Source: Pseudomonadota bacterium (GTDB taxonomy: Bacteria; Pseudomonadota; Gammaproteobacteria; Ga0077536). From it: DNA of 64,000 bases. The notes beneath the pieces were generated by a model, which saw nothing but the letters and a program-made list of their open reading frames with translations, made no database searches and was not told the origin of the DNA. The stretch covers positions 1 to 64,000 of the forward strand of contig JABISZ010000044.1 of assembly GCA_018668255.1 (NCBI GenBank), read 5' to 3'. Numbering within the stretch: position 1 is the first letter of the stretch; every line of letters starts with the position of its first letter. This document shows positions 6,988 through 12,685 of this stretch, piece after piece. Both the position numbers and the translations under genes were made by a program.

Positions 6988-7644
6988 ATGCATATTAGTG
7001 TGGTTTACGATAGTAACTTCAAAGGGCAAACAGAAGTTTTAGCCAAATGTATCGGACTAGGTGTTAATTCTGTCGACGGAATTAGCAGTCATCTAATTCA
7101 TGTCGATAATGTTGCCAACAACTGGAACACTTTACATACTTCTGATGGAATTATTTTTGGATGTCCTACTTATGTTGGCAGTATTTCAGGGAAATTCAAA
7201 ATCTTTATAGAAGAGCTAGCAGGCGAAGTATGGTTGAAGCGTATGTGGAAAAACAAAACAGCTGGTGGATTTACTGTATCAGCTGGAAGGTCTGGAGATA
7301 AACTGAATTGCTTGAATCAAATGGTTATATTTGCAAGCCAAATGGCTATGATATGGGTCCCACAACCAATACTGGGGGGGCACTATTCTTCTCAAGGAAG
7401 CGAGGATGACCTCAATCGTATTGGTGGTTACCTCGGCACAATGGCTCAAGCTAATATAGACGAGTCAGCGGATGTATCACCTCCTGAGAGCGATCGCGAA
7501 ACTGCAAGACTTCATGGCCGTCATATAGCTCAAATTACCCGTCAGCTTGTCGCTGGAAGAATAGCGGTTCCTATCACAGAAGAGTCTCCGTATGACCCAG
7601 AGAAACAGGAACGACCACTCAGCCTGAAAGAGCTATTTACCTGA
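6988..7644 (+). CDS. Flavodoxin-like FMN protein (NAD(P)H:quinone oxidoreductase type)
   Basis: A 218-residue flavodoxin-fold protein. The first strand reads HISVVYDSNFKGQTE, with the phosphate-binding loop in an atypical form. GCPTYVGSISGKFK matches the flavin isoalloxazine-contact loop seen in WrbA-like proteins, and GGFTVSAGRSGDK matches the later flavin loop. About 50 extra C-terminal residues follow. It may be a quinone reductase or an electron donor for the neighbouring P450. GGAAATAAC precedes the ATG. Confidence 0.75.
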   Translation: MHISVVYDSNFKGQTEVLAKCIGLGVNSVDGISSHLIHVDNVANNWNTLHTSDGIIFGCPTYVGSISGKFKIFIEELAGEVWLKRMWKNKTAGGFTVSAGRSGDKLNCLNQMVIFASQMAMIWVPQPILGGHYSSQGSEDDLNRIGGYLGTMAQANIDESADVSPPESDRETARLHGRHIAQITRQLVAGRIAVPITEESPYDPEKQERPLSLKELFT

Positions 7645-11787: not shown

Positions 11788-12519
11788 TTAACTAAAGCAG
11801 TTGCTCAGAGCTGACTTGACCACTGTCGGGTCAGATCGTCGAGCATAGTCTTCCGCCTGGTCTTTCCAAACAACAACGCCTCTCTCGTCGACAAGTAAGC
11901 TTGTTGGAACAGGTAATCCAGGCCTCCCTGGCAGTCGGAAGTTATTTAGATTTTTGTTGCGCAGACCAAAAAGATTGATCACTTTAAGCTTCGGATCCGC
12001 TAGCATAGTTGCTTTAAGGCCATGCATTCTTCGTCCCACACTGATTTCTGCCGCCGTGTCAGTAGAGATTGTAACCACCATCACACCTGCCTCATCAAGC
12101 TCAGGTCTTAACTCTTCCCATCGCCGTAACTCAGCGACACAATAGGGTCACCAGTGTGCCCTGAAAAACTTAATCAGCACTCTAGACCCCGACAGATCAG
12201 AGCTACCAAATAGCTTCTTATCATCTGTTTCGGTGGTAAAAGCAGGGATAATATCGCCAAGGCTTATCCCTTCTTTGTCTGCTTTTTGCTTACCCGTAAA
12301 AGTTAACACCAGTAGTAATATAGAAACACCTATAGCCCATGCACCAGCTAAATCCGTGCCTGTATTCATAGAGGCTATACCTAACAAAACACTCAAAAGC
12401 CAGAAGCCCTGAAACACTCGCGGCGTTTTAGGAAGATTTACTTTCCATGCTTTATGAAACCAAATAGAAGTAGTTAGGAGTGCGGCGATAAGCCCAATTA
12501 TGCCGGCGTACTGTGTCAT
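11788..12519 (-). CDS. Selenocysteine-containing membrane peroxiredoxin-like protein (UGA recoded)
   Basis: Read through one in-frame TGA at 12150-12148, this is a 243-residue protein. Three hydrophobic helices (about 3-21, 36-52, 57-75) precede a thioredoxin-fold redoxin domain (about 86-243). The TGA is codon 124 in RAHW-U-PYC, where related AhpC/TSA-type proteins have W-C-P-Y-C, giving a UxxC redox centre with C127. The family pattern continues past the TGA in the same frame: AELRRWEELRPELDEAG, TISTDT, LADPKL, PVPTSLLVDERGVV, ending at TAA 11788. By the positive-inside rule the redox domain may face the cytoplasm. Peroxide or disulfide reduction is the likely role. It is divergent from EthD. 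Stop-and-restart as two proteins is unlikely, because the downstream part would lack the active site. Confidence 0.9.
12117..12150 (-). promoter_or_regulatory. Candidate bacterial SECIS element directly after the UGA
   Basis: After UGA (12150-12148) the message can fold with U11-C12-G13-C14-U15-G16 pairing to C22-G23-G24-C25-G26-A27 (numbered from the first base after UGA; one U-G wobble), closed by a 5-nt loop AGUUA at 12131-12127. Two further wobble pairs can extend the stem, or CCC next to the UGA can pair with GGG at 12119-12117. The loop starts 16 nt after UGA and has G at its second position, as SelB-binding bacterial SECIS loops do. No folding program was run. Confidence 0.7.
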
Positions 12520-12685
12520 ATACTATCCTAACTTTGAATGGCGAATAATGCTCAGTATTGCCTAAAAAATAAGACAGGTCTAGTGACAAAAAGAGCGGCC
12601 AAATATCAAATATTTCAAGCATCACTGAAAGCGCTGTTCAGAGACAGAAGAAATATTTATATTGGAGCTTTAGGGGAGTTTAATC

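Follow-up and report, generated by a model that had tools for sequence, protein, structure and literature searches.

A gene predicted to encode a membrane-anchored selenocysteine redoxin with a UPYC active site in a gammaproteobacterium

A membrane-anchored redoxin gene interrupted by an in-frame TGA at its active site is very probably a selenoprotein gene (probability about 0.9, judged from sequence), the UGA being read as selenocysteine (Sec) via a SECIS element, SelB and tRNA-Sec to give a product with a UPYC redox motif. The gene lies on contig JABISZ010000044.1 of a Pseudomonadota genome (Gammaproteobacteria; Ga0077536), of which 64,000 nucleotides were analysed (the window). As originally predicted in coordinates, strand, single TGA and RAHW-TGA-PYC context, it forms one frame with that codon as its sole interruption; an in-frame stop directly precedes the start ATG at 12519, and TAA closes the frame (Table 1). 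The Pfam AhpC-TSA match continues unbroken across the TGA, in agreement with the claim of family-consistent sequence on both sides. TGA had also been described as an ordinary stop elsewhere in the window, and both a Pfam-supported gene (6988–7644) and the orthologue of our gene in the closest relative (L023; 81% identical) end in TGA, which argues against a general change of code. The neighbours between 6988 and 17701 are a hydantoinase A/B pair, a luciferase-like monooxygenase, a nitroreductase, a PQQ beta-propeller protein and an EthD protein, with no redox operon among them.

Table 1 Features of the predicted selenoredoxin gene in the window.
Feature	Position	Strand	Description and evidence
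Membrane-anchored selenoredoxin gene (predicted), whole	11788..12519	-	243 residues, Sec124, TAA stop
Possible ribosome-binding site AGGA, 5' of the ATG	12525..12533	-	Approximate; from reading of the sequence
Membrane anchor, three helices	12298..12516	-	AlphaFold helices at residues 2-25, 34-53 and 57-74; hydropathy over 81 sequences
AhpC-TSA/redoxin domain, residues 88-218	11866..12258	-	Pfam PF00578, E 1.9e-22; PDB fold matches
Predicted Sec codon TGA, residue 124	12148..12150	-	Position 1 of the UPYC redox motif; TGA in best 80/80 relatives, Cys in distant membrane relatives
Cys127 codon TGT	12139..12141	-	Last position of UPYC
Candidate bacterial SECIS hairpin	12120..12138	-	7-bp stem, 16 nt past the UGA; loop AGUUA at 12131-12127; codon constraint and compensatory pairs

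We scanned 84,980 species genomes and kept the best 80 loci; these relatives, of 40–79% identity, come from Halieaceae, other gammaproteobacteria, Myxococcota, Binatia, Acidobacteria and others. Residue 124 is TGA in every one of these 80 and Cys in none, and residue 127 is TGY in all; the search design did not disfavour Cys, the first of its patterns stopping before residue 124 and the second demanding Cys. Eight further genomes in the window's family also encode the protein with its membrane anchor, again with TGA at this position. The suggestion that Cys forms are lacking was abandoned when a class-wide profile search returned membrane-anchored proteins with the motif RGNWCPLC, the two Cys of which align with Sec124 and Cys127; Cys at residue 124, foreseen for Cys-containing homologues, thus occurs in distant membrane-anchored relatives. 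A search of plasmids yielded only soluble peroxiredoxin-like proteins (28–34% identical). A few copies of the gene are irregular: one (L026/L040, genome G021) carries an additional in-frame TGA where Leu is conserved, reflecting a broken gene, an error or a second recoding site, and another (L024/L038, genome G034) has an apparent frame-shift near both ends, through decay or assembly error. L040 (CAMCBY010000201.1) is labelled Klebsiella pneumoniae, yet its locus is that of G021, a genome of the window's family, and it is probably a mislabelled metagenome bin.

The bacterial SECIS search proposed in the original prediction revealed a covarying hairpin directly downstream of the UGA. Across 81 aligned genes, codon choice is close to background over most of the gene, with a strong departure and a collapse of entropy only at codons 128–133: Val128 is GTC in 100% (background 35%), Arg133 is CGA in 94% (background 15%) and Leu131 is nearly always TTA or TTG. 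The bases frozen in this way pair into a 7-bp stem with the loop AGUUA/G. The pair between nt 17 and nt 27 is C-G in 60 genes, G-U or G-C in 21 and mismatched in 0 (79 distinct sequences among the 81), a covariation reached by 0 of 500 shuffles, and sliding the partners abolishes pairing. On the tree this double change has at least 2–3 independent origins, with 24 changes at an unpaired synonymous loop site. Published rules for bacterial SECIS elements specify a loop of 3–9 nt with G within its first two positions followed by G/U, a stem of 4–16 bp, a spacing of 16–37 nt and a minimum free energy (MFE) of at most −7.5 (PMC13188914, Fig. 2), and the hairpin agrees with all of them (loop 5, beginning A-G-U; stem 7; spacing 16; MFE −8.8 kcal/mol for nt 12–32). 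We relied on covariation and codon constraint because most members gave unremarkable single-sequence folds, their z-scores being weak or close to zero; an Rfam scan of the region gave no match.

The source genome (2.3 Mb, 98% complete) contains selA, selB, selD and tRNA-Sec, the four components that the original prediction had proposed to look for. The tRNA-Sec scores 70.2 bits, above the Rfam cut-off, and has the anticodon TCA according to ARAGORN, while selA scores 578 bits. The selB gene is split between two contigs: one piece closes C74, which also carries selA, the other opens C54, which also carries the tRNA-Sec, and the two contig ends share a 203-nt overlap at 96%. The selD match (314 bits) lies within a 751-residue frame that is consistent with the Ndh-SelD fusion described in marine bacteria (PMC2398784). 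Across the window's family selA occurs in 31/36 genomes, and it is present in 14/16 genomes with relatives of the gene. The cultured strain NOR5-3 (L039/G401) has the UGA gene, an intact hairpin and selD; selA, selB and a real tRNA-Sec were not found in its draft genome (best Rfam match, tRNA-Ser), nor were they found in genome G030 (87% complete). The NOR5-3 exception could be accounted for by a draft gap spanning the selA-selB-selC cluster or by recent gene loss, and, because these genes seem to be clustered, one gap could conceal all three in either genome. Two other candidate selenoprotein genes were observed in the source genome. One (L010:477-1127, plus strand, contig G000:C14) encodes a soluble UxxC protein of 216 aa with the motif RGHWUPYC, is convergent with the selD-fusion gene and keeps its TGA in five relatives; the other (L011:1357-1881, minus strand, contig G000:C53) is PrxQ-like, with an in-frame TGA in TGGUTAEC (the TxxU peroxiredoxin type), and is probably a third selenoprotein.

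Decoding of the UGA as selenocysteine, in which the hairpin would recruit SelB and tRNA-Sec, is strongly supported by these sequence comparisons. That the TGA is a true stop, leaving a pseudogene or two genes (a 123-aa membrane peptide and a downstream fragment), is very improbable: gene finders would indeed call two open reading frames (12148–12519 and 11788–12084) and the frame-shifted and double-TGA copies look broken, but a TGA kept in all of the best 80 relatives, protein conservation on both sides of it, the frozen codons, the covarying hairpin and the full Sec machinery argue against it. Reading of the UGA as another amino acid, through a code change or a suppressor tRNA, would also account for in-frame reading and is less probable still, given that both the L023 orthologue and other genes here terminate in TGA, and that the site falls where redox proteins have Sec or Cys, a SECIS element accompanies it and the genome encodes a tRNA-Sec. 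A sequencing or assembly error turning TGT or TGC into TGA, conceivable in a 106-contig draft, can be dismissed, as the same TGA appears in independent assemblies, including those of the isolates NOR5-3 and HTCC2080, which rule out a shared assembly error. The gene had been proposed to encode a functional selenoprotein; the reading of the codon stands, and protein and RNA are under purifying selection, while a functional product is predicted.

Strong support also exists for the nature of the product: a redoxin of thioredoxin fold, anchored in the membrane, with the active site U-P-Y-C. The AlphaFold model (45-row alignment; pLDDT 94.4) comprises three helices followed by a thioredoxin-fold domain, and the AhpC-TSA score of 79.9 bits, against a gathering threshold of 26, places the protein in that superfamily. 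Invariant positions include K117-F-F-R120, W123-U-P-Y-C127, E130-L-R-R133, D154, P205 and R228. Against NCBIfam curated cut-offs the window protein falls far below all matched families, and matches across 45 members are weak. A chance fusion of the membrane part was rejected on the basis of its conservation in nearly all relatives. The original prediction held the three-helix fusion to be unusual and perhaps a distinct architecture; the anchor is a trait of the family and not peculiar to this genome, nearly all of the best 80 Sec relatives sharing it, and that of the Cys relatives is similar and longer.

Several known systems resemble this protein in part. Prx-like UxxC selenoproteins (Prx-like 1, pfam00578) from the Sargasso Sea and GOS surveys share the AhpC-TSA domain, the UxxC motif, a bacterial SECIS element and a marine origin; the passages on them in the survey reports, compared here by motif and Pfam family, mention no membrane anchor (PMC1088965, PMC2398784). 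The Cys redoxins with the motif FYRGNWCPLC (L118, L119, L121, L122, L126, L127, L130) likewise combine N-terminal membrane helices with an AhpC-TSA domain, but have Cys for Sec, about one extra helix and only distant similarity. The thiol-disulfide oxidoreductases ResA, TlpA and DsbE have in common with the window protein a thioredoxin fold, a membrane tether and a two-residue redox centre, and differ in having a single N-terminal anchor and a periplasmic or extracellular domain; the score in the corresponding NCBIfam test was 44 bits against 170. Bcp/PrxQ (3hjp, 2cx3) share the fold and the Pfam family but are soluble, with a TxxC centre, and the window protein scores 40 bits against their cut-off of 140.

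An appreciable, though less probable, alternative is that the protein is a true peroxidase (peroxiredoxin), with a peroxidatic Sec guarding membrane lipids, and not a disulfide reductase. AhpC-TSA membership is compatible with this, as are the nearest solved folds, which include Bcp4/PrxQ peroxiredoxins and, among the top matches, AhpE; ResA is an equally good match. The protein has neither the TxxC nor the TxxU motif of canonical peroxiredoxins: Sec occupies the position that Thr holds in TxxC, as that motif is described in one of the surveys (PMC1088965), giving a thioredoxin-type UxxC centre and slightly favouring a disulfide reductase role.

A tree from the catalytic domain alone (81 rows) splits into clade 1 (36 rows, including the window protein) and clade 2 (45 rows) with support of 99/96. 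In all 36 clade-1 proteins Lys/Arg residues occur in loop 1 and in the stretch following helix 3, which predicts a cytoplasmic domain, whereas 42 of the 45 in clade 2 have the reversed charge bias, which predicts a periplasmic one; the contrast persists, with some overlap, on exclusion of the N-terminal residues, whose extent varies with the start codon assigned. By the positive-inside rule the catalytic domain of the window protein, at net +6 in the C-in sense, likely faces the cytoplasm. A periplasmic domain, the arrangement of ResA/TlpA and the one predicted in the sister clade, is unlikely here: the charge bias and dsbD neighbours of that clade would favour it, as would the ccm genes that the original prediction placed elsewhere in the window, but the Lys/Arg distribution of the window protein, with which its entire clade agrees, speaks against it, and the Cys relatives with one extra helix also fit a C-in arrangement.

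In the sister clade the same domain seems to be periplasmic and is probably supplied with electrons by DsbD. Eight clade-2 members (L047, L050, L051, L054, L074, L076, L081, L095) lie directly beside a same-strand dsbD-like gene (domains DsbD_N, DsbD_TM and Thioredoxin_7), an adjacency found for none of the 36 clade-1 members (Fisher p 0.008, with the related members representing one or two events). No operon is conserved across the family; the neighbours that recur, both of them next to clade-2 members, are dsbD (Myxococcota) and a gene for a Sec redoxin-DsbD_N protein (Halieaceae), and the surroundings of clade-1 members revealed no conserved neighbour indicating a substrate. The Halieaceae gene, a minus-strand redoxin with a DsbD_N domain, mostly lies just downstream of the selenoredoxin (L110, L112, L094, L048, L078, L086, L099, L111, L113); read through in L110, L112 and L094 it has the motif SAVW-TGA-PPC and is likely an undescribed Sec redoxin-DsbD_N fusion. 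Envelope peroxiredoxins are reportedly fed by a DsbD-like transporter, which was not counted as evidence here. Both clades occur together on one Myxococcota contig (L095, L102) and in genome JAJDAQ (L074, L104).

For the cytoplasm-facing window protein, we propose that the Sec124 selenol would attack a disulfide or peroxide near the inner membrane, that Cys127 would resolve the selenenyl-sulfide and that cytoplasmic thioredoxin would re-reduce the enzyme, a scheme that as a whole we hold at slightly better than even odds; DsbD would reduce the clade-2 proteins. More tentatively, and at a little under even odds, the two clades may form a widespread selenoredoxin family with sisters on opposite faces of the inner membrane, one thioredoxin-fed and cytoplasmic, the other DsbD-fed and periplasmic, some genomes having both, in which orientation was inverted and Sec was never lost.

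Descriptions of Prx-like selenoproteins with a UxxC centre go back to 2005 and 2008. In the paper texts searched here, no description turned up of a membrane-anchored subfamily that is Sec-only in its best 80 relatives, with a SECIS element supported by covariation and two predicted orientations. Annotation pipelines usually split such UGA genes in two and NCBIfam has no model for the family, so gene catalogues probably lack this conserved redox enzyme from marine gammaproteobacteria and Myxococcota. That the 80 closest relatives use Sec alone suggests that its replacement by Cys is not easy there. With charge biases that are opposite in its two clades, the family would offer a naturally occurring example of topology inversion in an enzyme.
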